Below are positions 18,996 to 64,000 of a DNA stretch of 64,000 nucleotides, in pieces (the stretch's first letter is position 1; each line of letters begins with the position of its first letter). The translations under genes and the position numbers were made by a program. Origin of the DNA: Cellvibrio sp. 79 (GTDB taxonomy: Bacteria > Pseudomonadota > Gammaproteobacteria > Pseudomonadales > Cellvibrionaceae); the NCBI GenBank assembly GCA_003056245.1, contig MVDH01000001.1, positions 1,550,716 to 1,614,715 on the forward strand. Direction: 5' to 3'. The notes under the pieces were generated by a model that saw only the letters and a program-made list of their open reading frames with translations, was not told the origin of the DNA and did no database searches.

Positions 18996-19901
18996 ATGAC
19001 CAGTTTGTTTGATATCAACCTGAACCGTTTAGTGGTATTTGCGGCAGTAGTAGAGACAGGTTCAATTACTGCAGCGGCTGGCCGGTTAGGACTGGCCAAG
19101 ACGATGGTGAGCGCCCATATACAAAAGCTGGAAGCGGAGATTGGTAGTAATTTGCTGGTCCGCACCACTCGCCGTTTGCACCTTACTGACGCGGGAGGCC
19201 GCTTTTATGATGCGTGTCAGAAAATCCTGCAGGACACGGAGCTAGCCATAGCGGAAGCCAGCAATGACACTCAGCAGTTGCGCGGTAAATTGCGTATATC
19301 CACCTCTATTGATTACGGGGCATCGGTGGTGTCGCCGCTGGCTGCACGTTTGTGCAAGTTGCATCCGGATTTGCGTATTGAAATTATCGCCAGTGATCAT
19401 CGCGTCGATATGGTGGCCGAAGGTATTGATCTGGCAATTCGTATTGGCCGATTGGCGGACTCAAGCCACAAAGCCGCATTCATCGCCAGCTTCGACGAGT
19501 GGCTGGTTGCTGCTCCGGATTATGTTGCGGATCGTTTGCCTGGCGCGCCGGACATGTTGGATGCTTTCCCGTTGATTGGTTTATCCGTGTTATCTAATCC
19601 ATTGCATTGGACGTTTACAAGACAAGGATTTTCTTCCATGACGCATCGCTTCCAATCTTCCCTGATGACAAATACCTCCCTCGGTGTTCAAGCGGCAGCG
19701 CGGGTAGGGGCCGGTTTGGCGATATTACCGGATTACGCAGTGAAAGATGATATTGCCGCAGGCAGGCTGGTGCGTTTATTGCCTGAGTGGTCATTGCCCG
19801 GCGGCGGGATTTATGCCGTGTTTCCCGGTTCAGTACAGCGCTCGCAAAAGGTCGGTGTTTTTATTGAAGCGTTAAAACAGCGCTATAGTTCAGAGAGCTA
19901 A
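18996..19901 (+). CDS. LysR-family transcriptional regulator
   Basis: The 301-residue product has the LysR helix-turn-helix in residues 1-60 (FAAVVETGSITAAAGRLGLAKTMVSAHIQKLEAEIGSNLLVRTTRRLHLTDAG), then a two-lobed effector domain starting LRGKLRISTSIDYGASVVSPLAARL. It belongs to the subgroup that often controls a neighbouring oxidoreductase. It is divergent from the NAD(P)-binding/isochorismatase pair, its likely target. ATG 18996 has GAGGTGAT just upstream. Its last five codons, including the stop, form the first unit of a four-copy 15-bp tandem repeat. Confidence 0.9.
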   Translation: MTSLFDINLNRLVVFAAVVETGSITAAAGRLGLAKTMVSAHIQKLEAEIGSNLLVRTTRRLHLTDAGGRFYDACQKILQDTELAIAEASNDTQQLRGKLRISTSIDYGASVVSPLAARLCKLHPDLRIEIIASDHRVDMVAEGIDLAIRIGRLADSSHKAAFIASFDEWLVAAPDYVADRLPGAPDMLDAFPLIGLSVLSNPLHWTFTRQGFSSMTHRFQSSLMTNTSLGVQAAARVGAGLAILPDYAVKDDIAAGRLVRLLPEWSLPGGGIYAVFPGSVQRSQKVGVFIEALKQRYSSES

Positions 19902-19946
19902 AGTTCAGAGAACCAAAGTACAGAGAACCAAAGTTCAGAACGCTAA
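19887..19946 (+). repeat. Four 15-bp tandem repeats spanning the LysR stop codon
   Basis: Units at 19887 (agttcagagagctaa), 19902 (agttcagagaaccaa), 19917 (agtacagagaaccaa) and 19932 (agttcagaacgctaa). The first unit is exactly the last four codons plus stop of the LysR gene. All units stay in its reading frame, and the last also ends in TAA. Units 2 and 3 differ at the stop position (CAA). Confidence 0.9.
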
Positions 19947-55190: not shown

Positions 55191-56876
55191 ATGTTCCAGA
55201 ATTTTCGTTTATCCATGGCGTGGTTGCATACCTGGTTCGGCCTGGTGCTGGGTTTTGTGTTGATGGCAATCTTTTTCTTCGGCGCGCTGTCAGTATTTGA
55301 CCGCGAGATAGATCGCTGGGCAATTCCGGAATCGCGTTTTGCGCCACAACCGATGCCGTCGTTTGATAATTTACTGAAGCCGATTTTTGCAGACATGCAG
55401 CCGGGCAAAGCAGATCTGGATTTTGTGCGCGATAAAGTGAACGGCCCCTTGCCGGAACGTTTTGACACCGTGGTGACTTGGGGAGCTTATACAACCCATC
55501 GCGATCCGGTGTTAAATATTTTTGCCGGTTATGAAGTACCTAATGCAAAAGAACCGGATGTTACTGTGTTTAGCAGCCGCACGATTGACCCGCGCACCGG
55601 TGTTTTATTTTCGGATGACCAATTAAAAATCGGCAGCGGATTTTTTTATCCGTTGCATTACAGCTTGAATTTCCATTGGATGAATCTGGGTTACTGGATT
55701 GTGGGATTTTCATCGCTGATTATGTTAGCGGCGCTGGTGAGTGGCGTGGTGATGCACCGCAAAATATTTCGCGAATTATTTACTTTCCGTCCGAAGAAAA
55801 GTACACAGCGCAGCGCGCTCGATTTGCACAATCTTACCGGCGTTGTTGCACTGCCATTCCATTTCTTTTTTGCCTTCACTGGCCTGGTTATTTTTGCGGG
55901 AATTTATTTTCCGATTGGTCACACGCAGATGAAATCGCTACATGACCAGCACGAAGTTGTTGAAGCACAGGAAACCGGTTTGCCGCATGATCGCGCCGGT
56001 GTCGCTGCACCGGTAGCGTCGGTAGATGCGATGGTTGCCGAAGCGCAACGTCGTTGGGCAGAACGCGGCATGGCTGGTGAAGTTGGCTTTCTTACCTTGC
56101 GCCATGTGGGCGATGCTAACGGTTATGTGAGTGTTTATCGTGCCGGTACTGATCGTATCGCGTTAACAGGTGAAGGTATTCACTTCAAAGCGAGCACTGG
56201 TGAATTGTTGCGTGAAGACCCGCCATCAACAGTAGTCGCAAGCGTAAATGAATTTCTAACCGGATTGCATTTGCAGCATTTCCGCCACTGGATGTTGCGC
56301 TGGTTGTATGTGTTAGGTGGGCTTGCAGGATGTGTTTGTATCGCCACCGGATTTATTTTCTTTGTCGAAAAACGTAAACGCCAATATGCGAAAGAAGGCA
56401 GCCAAAACGGTCGCATTGTCGATGCAATGGCGGTCACTACCGTAACCGGAATGTTGCTGGCAACTTTGGGAATTTTAATTGCAAACCGTTTATTACCAGC
56501 GAGCTTGCCTGAGGGCTGGCCCGGCCGTGGCGACCTGGAACAATATTTTTTCTGGGGCACCTGGGTTGCAGTGATGGTCCACGCATTTTTACGCAGTGCT
56601 CCGGTTGCACAAGGGAAAATAAATCCGGCGTGGAGTGAACAATGTTTAGCGTTAGCGGTGCTCGCACCAGTTACCGTTTTATTAAATTGGATCACCACTG
56701 GCGATCATCTAGTGAAAACGATTAGCGAAGGTTATTGGCCGGTAGCGGGATTTGATCTGGCGATTTTGGTGGGTGGCATCCTGGCTTTCATCGCGGCGCG
56801 TCATTTGCGCCGCAAAGGGAAAGGTGCACCTCAGGATGCAACTGATTTTGCGGATGCGGAGGTGCAACATGGTTAA
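55191..56876 (+). CDS. PepSY-associated membrane protein, siderophore-iron reductase type
   Basis: The 561-residue protein has the PepSY_TM layout: a first membrane segment (WLHTWFGLVLGFVLMAIFFFGALSVF) with the family histidine, a periplasmic domain with PepSY-like beta-alpha pattern, then three to five further membrane segments, one with LHNLTGVVALPFHFFFAFTGLVIFAGIYFP and another with HFRHWMLRWLYVLGGLAGC. Histidines in the helices would bind haem. Such proteins reduce ferric siderophores in the periplasm or membrane. GGGGAGG precedes the start. It overlaps the DUF3325 gene by 8 bases. Confidence 0.88.
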   Translation: MFQNFRLSMAWLHTWFGLVLGFVLMAIFFFGALSVFDREIDRWAIPESRFAPQPMPSFDNLLKPIFADMQPGKADLDFVRDKVNGPLPERFDTVVTWGAYTTHRDPVLNIFAGYEVPNAKEPDVTVFSSRTIDPRTGVLFSDDQLKIGSGFFYPLHYSLNFHWMNLGYWIVGFSSLIMLAALVSGVVMHRKIFRELFTFRPKKSTQRSALDLHNLTGVVALPFHFFFAFTGLVIFAGIYFPIGHTQMKSLHDQHEVVEAQETGLPHDRAGVAAPVASVDAMVAEAQRRWAERGMAGEVGFLTLRHVGDANGYVSVYRAGTDRIALTGEGIHFKASTGELLREDPPSTVVASVNEFLTGLHLQHFRHWMLRWLYVLGGLAGCVCIATGFIFFVEKRKRQYAKEGSQNGRIVDAMAVTTVTGMLLATLGILIANRLLPASLPEGWPGRGDLEQYFFWGTWVAVMVHAFLRSAPVAQGKINPAWSEQCLALAVLAPVTVLLNWITTGDHLVKTISEGYWPVAGFDLAILVGGILAFIAARHLRRKGKGAPQDATDFADAEVQHG

Positions 56877-57186
56877 TGTATTGTTAGCGGCAGCGACTGT
56901 TTTATGTGTGCTCGGTTTTGCATGGCTGGCGTTAGCGATGGATGTGCATTGGAAACAAGTACGCAATGACCAGCCCTCGGCAAGCACCGCCAAAGTGCTG
57001 CGTGTTTTAGGCGGCTTGTCATTGTTTGTCTCGCTGGTGCTGTGTTTGTTTACCGCTCACGCCACTATGGCATCGTTGGTTTGGGTGATGTTGCTCGCGG
57101 CTTCTGCATTGATTGTTGCTTTTACTTTTACCTGGCGTCCGCGTTTGTTTTCTTTGCTTGTCATCTGGGTGAAAGCGACTAACTAA
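56869..57186 (+). CDS. Small membrane protein, DUF3325-like
   Basis: The 105-residue product has three membrane segments (LLAAATVLCVLGFAWLALAMDVH, LGGLSLFVSLVLCLFTAH, WVMLLAASALIVAFTF). It is the third gene of the DUF3649-PepSY-DUF3325 iron operon, overlapping the PepSY gene end by 8 bases, with GGAGG 7 bases ahead of the ATG. The frame is open to 56752, but this internal start with its site is the real one. The role is inferred from the operon only. Confidence 0.8.
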   Translation: MVNVLLAAATVLCVLGFAWLALAMDVHWKQVRNDQPSASTAKVLRVLGGLSLFVSLVLCLFTAHATMASLVWVMLLAASALIVAFTFTWRPRLFSLLVIWVKATN

Positions 57187-57268
57187 CTGTTCAACCGTTA
57201 CCGGATTCATCACGCAGTGCCTCTCTGGGCCTGCGTGTAGTCTGTATAACTTTCTGGCTTGCTACTGT

Positions 57269-57328
57269 TTAACTCCGTACCATTCAACTCCGTACCATTT
57301 AACTCGCTGCCATTTAACGTCCTACCAT
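57269..57328 (-). repeat. Four 15-bp tandem repeats at the fumC stop codon
   Basis: On the minus strand, in fumC phase: ATGGTAGGACGTTAA (57314-57328, the last four codons and stop), then ATGGCAGCGAGTTAA, ATGGTACGGAGTTGA and ATGGTACGGAGTTAA. Every unit begins with ATG and ends with a stop codon. The array fills most of the gap to the DUF3325 gene. Confidence 0.9.
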
Positions 57329-58699
57329 ATTGTCTGGCACTACCCAGGCATCAAATTGTTCGCCAGTGACATAACCGAGCGCGAGTGCCGATTCACGTAA
57401 GCTGGTACCTTCTTTGTGCGCTTTCTTGGCGATCTGCGCGGCTTTGTCGTAACCGATGTGCGTATTTAATGCGGTAACCAACATCAATGAACGCTCAACC
57501 AATTCGTTAATGCGCGCGCGATTTGGCTCAATCCCTACTGCGCAGTGATCGTTGAAACTCACCATGCCATCCGCGAGCAAACGCACACTTTGCAAAAAGT
57601 TGTGCGCGACCATCGGGCGGAACACGTTTAATTCAAAATTTCCCGATGCACCGCCGATGTTAATTGCTACATCATTACCCATCACTTGCGCGGCCAGCAT
57701 AGTCAACGCTTCGCTTTGGGTGGGATTGACTTTGCCGGGCATGATTGATGAACCGGGTTCATTTTCCGGGATGCTGATTTCACCGATACCGCTGCGCGGG
57801 CCGCTTGCCAGCCAGCGCACATCGTTGGCGATTTTCATCAAACTGGCAGCGAGTGTTTTCAATGAGCCGTGGGCATGAACCAATGCATCACACGAAGCCA
57901 ATGCTTCAAATTTATTAGGTGCAGTGACGAATGGTAACTGGGTTAACTGTGCCAGTTCAGCGGCGACTTGCTCCGCGTAACCTTTGGGCGCATTTAGTCC
58001 GGTTCCAACTGCTGTACCGCCTAATGCCAATTCACTCAAGTGCGGCAGTGCAGCGCGCACATGTTTTTCGCCGTGATGTAATTGTGCTACCCAACCGGAA
58101 ATTTCCTGGCCCAACGTAAGTGGTGTTGCATCTTGCAAATGCGTGCGGCCAATTTTTACGATGTCATCAAATTCGCGGGCTTTGCTTTCGAGTGTTGTGC
58201 GTAATTTTTCAATTGACGGCAACAAATGATTGGTGAGTGCTTCAACGGCGGCCACATGCATCGCCGTTGGAAAAACATCGTTACTGGATTGGCTGCGATT
58301 GACATCATCATTCGGATGCACCAATCGTTCATCGCCGCGCGGGCCACCAAGAATTTCGCTCGCGCGATTGGCAATCACTTCATTCAAATTCATGTTGGTT
58401 TGCGTACCGGAGCCGGTTTGCCAAACCACTAATGGAAATTCGTCGGGGTGTTTGCCTGCGATTACTTCATCAGCCGCCGCGATAATCGCTTCGGTTTTTT
58501 TCCCTTCTTGCAAACCGAGTAAGCAATTCACTTTAGCGGAAGCGCGTTTTACTTGCGCTAATGCGCGAATAATTTCCAGCGGTTGGCGCTCGCCGGAGAT
58601 ATCAAAGTTTTGCAACGAGCGTTGGGTTTGTGCACCCCACAAACGTTCAGCGGGAACATCAATGGGGCCAAAGGTATCGCGTTCACTTCGTGTTTTCAT
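57314..58699 (-). CDS. fumC: Class II fumarate hydratase
   Basis: The 461-residue product has the fumarase/aspartase signature [13 protein letters not shown], the catalytic [13 protein letters not shown] segment and [14 protein letters not shown]. Class II fumarases need no iron-sulfur cluster and convert fumarate and malate in the TCA cycle. Placed beside a fagA-like gene and a Fur box, it fits the iron-sparing fumarase of pseudomonads, induced when iron is scarce. Its 3' end is the first unit of a four-copy 15-bp tandem repeat containing the stop codon. Confidence 0.95.
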
Positions 58700-62510: not shown

Positions 62511-63554
62511 ATGGCGCGCGCGATTTGGAAGGGAGCGATCAGTTTTGGGTTGGTGCATATTCCTGTAGCTTTGGTGTCCGCAACTTCATCTAATAATATT
62601 GATTTTGATTGGTTGGATAAGCGAAGTATGGAGCCTGTAGGTTATAAACGGATTAATAAAGTCAGTGGCAAGGAAATGAAAGCGGAAAATATTGTAAAAG
62701 GCATCCAATATGAAAAAGGGCACTACGTTATTTTAAGTGAAGAAGAAATTAAAACTGCCCACCCGAAAACAACACAGTCCATTGATATTTTTTCGTTTGT
62801 TGACCAAACCGATATCCCTATCACTCACATAGAAGTTCCTTATTATCTCAGTCCGGATAAGCGCGGCGAAAAAGTGTACGCGCTTTTGCGTAAAGCGCTG
62901 GAGACTACCGGTAAGGTTGCACTCGCCAATGTAATCCTGCATACGCGCCAGCATTTGGCGGTGCTTATGCCACTGGAATCCGCATTGGTGTTAATACTAT
63001 TGCGCTGGCCCACAGAAGTGCGCAGCCTGGAAACCCTTGAGTTGGGTAAAGCCGTTAGTCATCCTGAGCTTAATAAAAATGAATTGGATATGGCCAAACG
63101 CCTGATAGAGGATATGGCAGCCAAATGGGACCCTGATGAATACCAGGACACTTTTCAGGAAAAAATAATGGCGTTGGTCGACAAGAAAGTCCATGAAGGA
63201 AAAATTGAAAATGTTGAACAGGTTAGTGCTAATGAAGAACGAAAATCTGCCGACATTATCGATTTAACCGAGCTGCTTAAAAGGAGCCTTGGCGGTAAGT
63301 CTTCAACAAAAACATCTTCTATAAAAGCAAGGTCAATCAGTAAGGCCAAAGCATCGAGCACGGCTGAAAACATAGAAACAAAAAAAGCTGGTACGGCAAA
63401 AAGTGAATCCAAAGCTAAACCTGTTTCTACTAAAAGTGCTGCTACCAAAAGTAGTAATGCGAAAAACGTTAATAAAAGTACACCAACTAAAACTAAACCA
63501 GTTAAAGCTACGCCAGCTAAACCAACCCGGCAAAAAAAATCTGCCACCAGATAA
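62511..63554 (+). CDS. ku: Ku protein of bacterial non-homologous end joining
   Basis: The 347-residue product begins MARAIWKGAISFGLVHIPVAL, the Ku-core opening, and continues with GYKRINKVSGKEM, DIFSFVDQTDIPITHIEVPYYLSPDKRGEKVYALL and ALVLILLRWPTEVRSLE. After about residue 260 comes a Lys/Ser/Thr-rich tail of about 85 residues that would bind DNA without sequence preference. Ku rings bind double-strand ends and bring in LigD, whose gene begins 40 bases downstream. ATG 62511 has GGAGG just before it. Confidence 0.95.
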   Translation: MARAIWKGAISFGLVHIPVALVSATSSNNIDFDWLDKRSMEPVGYKRINKVSGKEMKAENIVKGIQYEKGHYVILSEEEIKTAHPKTTQSIDIFSFVDQTDIPITHIEVPYYLSPDKRGEKVYALLRKALETTGKVALANVILHTRQHLAVLMPLESALVLILLRWPTEVRSLETLELGKAVSHPELNKNELDMAKRLIEDMAAKWDPDEYQDTFQEKIMALVDKKVHEGKIENVEQVSANEERKSADIIDLTELLKRSLGGKSSTKTSSIKARSISKAKASSTAENIETKKAGTAKSESKAKPVSTKSAATKSSNAKNVNKSTPTKTKPVKATPAKPTRQKKSATR

Positions 63555-63594: not shown

Positions 63595-64000
63595 ATGACC
63601 AAGCCACTGCGTGAATACCATCGCAAACGCAACTTCGATGTAACCACAGAGCCTCGTGGCGATGTGCAGGGAAAAGGAAAATCTCCGGCTCATGCGTTGC
63701 AATTTGTTATCCAAAAACACGACGCGCGACGGCTGCACTACGATTTTCGTCTGGAATTGAACGGTACCCTATTGAGTTGGGCAATTCCCAAAGGCCCGAG
63801 CCTTGATCCGACAGATAAACGTCTCGCCGTTCATGTAGAAGATCATCCATTGGATTACGCGAGCTTTGAAGGACATATACCAGAGGGGCATTACGGCGGC
63901 GGTGACGTCATAGTATGGGATCGCGGAATTTGGGAACCGGTCGGCGATGCAACGGCGGGCTACAAATCGGGAAAACTTAAATTTGTTTTAATCGGTGAAA
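63595..64000 (+). CDS. ligD: DNA ligase D, N-terminal phosphoesterase part (cut by window edge)
   Basis: The visible 135 codons start MTKPLREYHRKRNFDVTTEPRGD and run through FVIQKHDARRLHYDFRLELNG, SWAIPKGPSLDP, LAVHVEDHPLDYASFEGHIPEGHYGGG and VIVWDRG. This is the 3'-phosphoesterase domain of LigD, with the catalytic histidine and arginine region visible. Ligase and polymerase domains are expected past the edge. AGGAGG lies 7 bases ahead of the ATG. Together with ku upstream it makes the two-gene end-joining system. If the downstream part is missing it would be a stand-alone phosphoesterase. Confidence 0.92.
   Translation, partial: MTKPLREYHRKRNFDVTTEPRGDVQGKGKSPAHALQFVIQKHDARRLHYDFRLELNGTLLSWAIPKGPSLDPTDKRLAVHVEDHPLDYASFEGHIPEGHYGGGDVIVWDRGIWEPVGDATAGYKSGKLKFVLIGE

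Follow-up and report, generated by a model that had tools for sequence, protein, structure and literature searches.

The window analyzed here is a 64,000-nucleotide stretch of the Cellvibrio sp. 79 genome. Toward its 3' end lies fumC (57314..58699, minus strand), an open reading frame for a class II fumarate hydratase of 461 amino acids that matched TIGR00979 (fumC_II) at 787 bits and the Pfam families Lyase_1 and FumaraseC_C. On the minus strand, the 3' terminus of the gene reads ATG GTA GGA CGT TAA and is followed by three more copies in phase with fumC. Unit 1 (ATGGTAGGACGTTAA, 57314..57328) comprises the final four fumC codons and the real stop. Unit 2 (ATGGCAGCGAGTTAA) occupies 57299..57313, unit 3 (ATGGTACGGAGTTGA) occupies 57284..57298, and unit 4 (ATGGTACGGAGTTAA), with 1 mismatch compared to unit 3, occupies 57269..57283, all on the minus strand. 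The array at 57269-57328 is made up of these four head-to-tail 15-bp units, with a stop codon in all 4. The units are imperfect, any pair differing at 1 to 4 of the 15 bases. An earlier note on this DNA had described the last four fumC codons and the stop as repeated three more times, each copy running in phase from ATG to a stop, and that description was confirmed on the minus strand. On the 3' side of the array, the centroid structure contained the stem of a GC-rich stem-loop (57211..57237, minus strand) that lacks a T tail on the fumC strand and was not called by the terminator scan; it is a possible candidate terminator for fumC.

A second gene with a terminal array, located 37 kb from fumC, encodes a lysR-family regulator of 301 amino acids (18996..19901, plus strand). 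Its array (19887..19946, plus strand) has four 15-bp units: AGTTCAGAGAGCTAA, AGTTCAGAGAACCAA, AGTACAGAGAACCAA, and AGTTCAGAACGCTAA. Units 1 and 4 end in TAA, units 2 and 3 end in CAA, and none of the 4 contains an ATG. The earlier note had assigned the same design to both genes. The 15-bp period, the start at codon -4, and the four copies were indeed the same, but the repeated stops and ATG-to-stop minigenes were not, a stop being present in 2 of 4 lysR units and an ATG in none. The design common to the fumC and lysR arrays is a 15-bp period from codon -4 and not a series of stops or minigenes. TRF scored the fumC array at 78 and the lysR array at 85, compared to a top score of 59 in 20 first-order Markov versions of the window (period of at least 9); the two arrays are, therefore, not due to chance. 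Adjacent head-to-tail copies at fumC were more similar than expected by chance by the same scores, as in a minisatellite.

For wider counts, we used a sample of 2.064 Mb, which is 36% of the 5.7-Mb genome with the window included, and a codon-usage gene caller that gave 1,597 genes; the gene calls are our own. A third case was found in polB (DNA polymerase II), where six 15-bp units lie across the stop (G000:C1:372803-372892, or L090:12803-12892, G000 being this genome). A stop is present in 3 of the 6 polB units, TAC takes its place in the other 3, and no unit has an ATG. The polB array is absent from the TRF period-15 counts given below because TRF called its period as 30. Two intergenic arrays were also observed in this genome. 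One (G000:C1:513661-513758, L227:13661-13758) is not at a stop and consists of five near-identical copies of the 15-bp sequence AGCCAATCCGTTTCA (98% match), and the other (G000:C9:1029449-1029563, L168:9449-9563) consists of five 23-bp copies.

Relatives, with one genome compared per species, had a single unit at the same place for each of the three genes. The fumC orthologues of G014 (96% at the amino acid level) and G018 (95%), the 2 compared, both end in MVGR* with one unit matching unit 1, followed by unrelated sequence. Since the sequence 3' of fumC could not be aligned with that of the relatives, the gain at fumC lacks a clean empty site. In G010, the lysR orthologue (90% at the amino acid level) carries a single unit, AGTTCAGAAAGCTGA, which is followed by the downstream flank and HAD gene also seen here, such that the present genome has gained three units (45 bp) at lysR; the remaining differences between the flanks are substitutions and 2 indel bases. 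For polB, G010 and G014 have one unit each, and the G014 flank resembles the sequence that follows the last unit here. G018 and G003 have a different polB ending, and the array is absent from the aligned stretch.

Besides fumC and lysR, 4 of the 12 TRF arrays found across a stop were checked against relatives, namely polB and three others. In a DUF1456 gene, a 15-bp duplication accompanies an earlier stop than in G010. The array of a DUF899 gene was absent in both relatives with a match (G010 and G003), and G014 and G018 gave no match. A GTP cyclohydrolase II gene has a repeated CAGGA motif that is present as one copy in G018 and as two copies at other spacings in G010 and G014. The gains at the compared stop-spanning arrays look recent and local, with the GTP cyclohydrolase II case partly shared.

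The window fumC was itself unusual in its distribution. A close orthologue was found in only 2 of 20 congeners (G014 and G018), and the closest proteins in a named genome collection, from which the source genome itself was possibly left out, were from Burkholderiales, including Ramlibacter and Comamonas (84-86% for the highest-ranked matches, among the best 80 of a longer list). Most of the genus has another FumC of approximately 50% identity, which is also present here at G000:C1:1255409-1256695 (52%). From these observations, the window fumC was likely acquired by horizontal transfer.

Near-exact duplications in non-coding DNA were counted by lag. There were 11, 13, and 8 at lags 14, 15, and 16, respectively, and 1-3 at each of lags 9-13 and 17-20, with a second, lower rise of 8, 5, and 5 at lags 21, 22, and 23. 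The total for lags 14-16 was 32 compared to 37 over the twelve flanking lags (9-13 and 17-23; P = 7e-7), or 29 compared to 37 without the window (P = 9e-6). In all sequence of this genome, at lags that are not multiples of three, 31 duplications were found at lags 14 and 16 compared to 24 at lags 10, 11, 13, 17, and 19. The corresponding numbers were 4 and 18 for a set of 80 fumC loci from other bacteria (576 kb without gene calls), and 3 and 4 for a 400-kb sample of G018. The genome-wide peak of 14-16 bp duplications in non-coding DNA probably accounts for the common 15-bp size of the arrays, so that no common function is required to explain two 15-bp arrays in the window. This size-specific excess is a sharper observation than the fumC array itself, for which an ordinary tandem duplication of recent origin is the most likely explanation.

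We consider it quite probable that the three extra fumC copies arose by short tandem duplication in this lineage followed by strand slippage, and that they were tolerated as the stop is retained by the first copy. A stretch of about 15 bp would first have been duplicated, either through misalignment during replication or when end joining filled in a staggered break. Slippage would then have added units, and point mutations would have aged them, the stops of later units persisting or decaying without selection. The 15-bp size is probably the favored duplication length of this genome and not an effect of reading frame. Arrays are probably seen at gene ends as an insertion behind a stop costs little, and those inside genes or before starts would mostly be lost; because insertions at stops should be harmless, a mild excess there is expected. 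Consistent with tandem duplication, the stop is missing from half of the lysR and polB units, and arrays across start codons look depleted (6 compared to 11.3 expected, P = 0.05-0.06). Against it, all four fumC units keep the stop, there is a weak excess at stops for the 14-16-bp class and for the terminal 15-mer over all lags, and all three stop-spanning arrays with at least 3 good copies have period 15.

One possible source of the initial duplications is encoded in the window. Ku, of bacterial non-homologous end joining (62511..63554, plus strand; TIGR02772 Ku_bact, 295 bits, cut-off 150), is adjoined by the 5' part of LigD with its phosphoesterase domain (63595..64000, plus strand; TIGR02777, 198 bits, cut-off 144), which runs off the window. 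The lysine/threonine-rich tail of Ku also contains an in-frame 15-bp coding repeat of its own (window 63473-63521). Ku is patchy in the genus, being found in 7 of 21 genomes including this one, G014, and G010, and in 6 of the 16 genomes that are at least 90% complete; the 14 of 21 in which none was found include some incomplete genomes. A search for Ku in G018 did not find it. Non-coding hits at lags 14-16 numbered 32 here (363.5 kb) and 2 in the Ku-negative G018 (64.0 kb), where approximately 5.6 would be expected at the rate of the present genome, a lower rate that is only suggestive. In eukaryotes, fill-in of staggered ends makes short tandem duplications. No such duplications by bacterial Ku-LigD fill-in were found in the part of the matching literature listings that was covered. 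End-joining fill-in by Ku-LigD is a possible source of the duplications here, and replication misalignment is equally possible. A broader proposal, that Ku-LigD fill-in of staggered breaks leaves a genome-wide 14-16-bp duplication scar, with scars across stops kept and amplified such that gene ends record end joining, seems to us rather unlikely. As Ku-positive genomes and genomes without a detected Ku occur in one genus, counting can ask whether end-joining enzymes leave a characteristic duplication length.

The earlier note had gone further and suggested that a general process copies gene termini in this genome, an idea to be weighed by comparing repeats at stops with random placement. The part of this claim that stood is the gain of copies in this lineage at fumC, lysR, and polB, each with single-unit orthologues. 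A process aimed at gene ends, such as one acting through breaks at terminating ribosomes or convergent transcription, was not established. We counted non-coding TRF arrays (score of at least 34, period 9-60) in the 2.064 Mb and took the expectation from random placement over non-coding positions. Over all periods, 12 of 111 arrays spanned a stop compared to 10.9 expected (P = 0.41, all P values in this analysis being post hoc and uncorrected across 37 cuts of the array statistics, besides a per-lag table of the terminal 15-mer), or 10 of 109 compared to 10.6 without the window. The same was true for arrays with at least 2.8 copies (3 of 17 compared to 3.2 expected), for the first 1.264 Mb (7 compared to 6.2), and for the G018 sample, in which 1 of 13 non-coding arrays spanned a stop compared to 1.2 expected. 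Near-exact (11/12) repeats of all lags spanned stops in 16 of 109 cases compared to 11.4 expected (P = 0.10).

An excess at stops, although weak, was seen when the size class was restricted. Near-exact repeats at lags 14-16 spanned a stop in 7 of 32 cases compared to 2.95 expected (P = 0.023), a count that is one lower than it might be as only the most exact stretch of the fumC array (57268-57305) was scored, which left this array outside the stop-spanning class; without the window, the values were 6 of 29 and 2.61 (P = 0.041). TRF arrays of period 15 spanned a stop in 5 of 12 cases compared to 1.4 expected (P = 0.008), or 3 of 10 compared to 1.1 without the window (P = 0.087). Among non-coding arrays with at least 3 good copies, 3 of 4 with period 15 spanned a stop (fumC, lysR, and polB) compared to 0 of 9 with other periods, where fumC was counted as stop-spanning and two lag-30 rows that repeat the polB and C1:513.7-kb arrays were left out. 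The terminal 15-mer of genes, summed over lags 9-30, was repeated at 30 of 1,099 stops compared to 18 of 913 and 13 of 768 intergenic control offsets, and at lag 16 alone at 5 of 1,099 stops compared to 0 of 913 and 1 of 768. At lag 15, however, 5 of 1,099 stops had the terminal 15-mer recurring 15 bp on (at least 11/15), as did 3 of 913 and 3 of 768 control offsets, which makes such repeats about equally frequent at stops and within intergenic DNA. The lysR locus adds one point in favor of a preferred site. The G014 orthologue has a different array, of period 14/15 and 2.5 copies, at the same stop (L194 2394-2430), and among the 8 lysR loci scanned, including that of the present genome, only these two have a gene-end array. 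This separate array may be a hint of a preferred site and counts against simple duplication. Taken together, these data give an overall count near random placement with a weak excess at stops in the 14-16-bp class, and a process specific to gene ends appears unlikely to us.

Tandem duplication followed by slippage was also weighed against a coding origin for two of the arrays. The lysR and polB arrays could once have been coding if the C-terminus was extended by in-frame duplications and then cut back when a nonsense mutation arose in the first unit or units. In both arrays, a sense codon stands in place of the stop in the inner units (lysR 2-3 and polB 3-5), and a stop is present in the last one. 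In polB, this last unit matches the gene end of the relatives, and every multi-copy array across a stop has a period that is a multiple of three. However, every fumC unit has a stop, and the proteins of G010 and G014 end at the place of unit 1. The other stop-spanning arrays have periods of 13, 14, 15, 16, 23, and 24, and the frame is, therefore, not generally kept. A coding past for these arrays is unlikely.

Function of the fumC units is less likely still. Under such a scenario, tandem ATG-NNN-NNN-NNN-stop minigenes would re-engage ribosomes, or the stops would back up read-through; the earlier note had raised both. The ATGs of units 2 and 4 are preceded by anti-Shine-Dalgarno matches (-5.5 and -6.1 kcal/mol) stronger than the median of -4.0 for 799 well-scored predicted ATG starts, the median for 2,000 random ATGs being -1.9, and a stop is present in 4 of 4 fumC units. 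In contrast, the internal Met of unit 1 scored -6.2 kcal/mol without being a start, unit 3 scored -3.1, and the array is absent in the two relatives, G014 and G018. Both an ATG and a stop were kept in every unit at fumC only (4 of 4). Neither idea is general: minigenes fail at lysR (ATG in 0 of 4 units) and polB (0 of 6), and a run of stops fails at the same two genes, where 2 of 4 and 3 of 6 units have none. A second in-frame stop at codon +5 was not in excess over the 1,597 genes (0.061, with a range of 0.051-0.070 for codons +1 to +8), and genome-wide selection for a backup stop was rejected on this count. At the RNA level, an intrinsic terminator formed by the fumC array was rejected as the terminator scan called none on the fumC strand, strong RNA structure at the array was rejected (z of -1.83, with 6 of 200 shuffles folding equally well), and positions 56800-57800 had no Rfam matches. 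The arrays likely have no function of their own, and functional fumC units are very unlikely. An assembly or sequencing artefact is extremely improbable, for although the genome is a draft of 13 contigs, similar arrays occur at several loci and a 60-bp array with diverged units should be shorter than common reads.

The reading that we prefer, short tandem duplication and then slippage, resembles several known systems in part; it was drawn from about a third of the genome. Bacterial minisatellite-type tandem repeats (VNTR-like arrays) arise by short duplication and slipped-strand mispairing. They are likewise head-to-tail, imperfect, low in copy number, and lineage-specific, with a unit unique to the locus; the arrays here differ in that the unit spans the stop codon and the genome shows a 14-16 bp size peak. 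Phase-variable simple sequence repeats switch frame or promoter spacing, and their copy number changes by slippage, as proposed here. In contrast to these repeats, the extra units here sit behind the real stop. Dispersed intergenic repeats of the REP/ERIC/MITE type have one sequence genome-wide and, like the arrays here, are often near the 3' ends of genes, whereas the fumC unit is specific to its locus. A search of the genome with the pattern ATGGTACGGAGTTRA at up to 2 mismatches gave 18 places, of which 2 were exact (fumC units 3 and 4) and 16 had 2 mismatches, compared to 13 for a reversed control pattern. A dispersed element, whether REP/ERIC/MITE or of the TAACTGA type, was rejected as no other place in the genome matched the fumC unit with fewer than 2 mismatches. 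Comparable duplications across a stop were not reported in the titles and opening parts of abstracts of the literature searched. The TAACTGA direct repeats of marine Beggiatoaceae (MacGregor 2015, PMC4679880) are a fixed 7-bp sequence in 169 sets, mostly directed at start codons. In that system one fixed 7-bp unit is used, whereas each locus here repeats its own 15-bp sequence, copied from the end of its gene.
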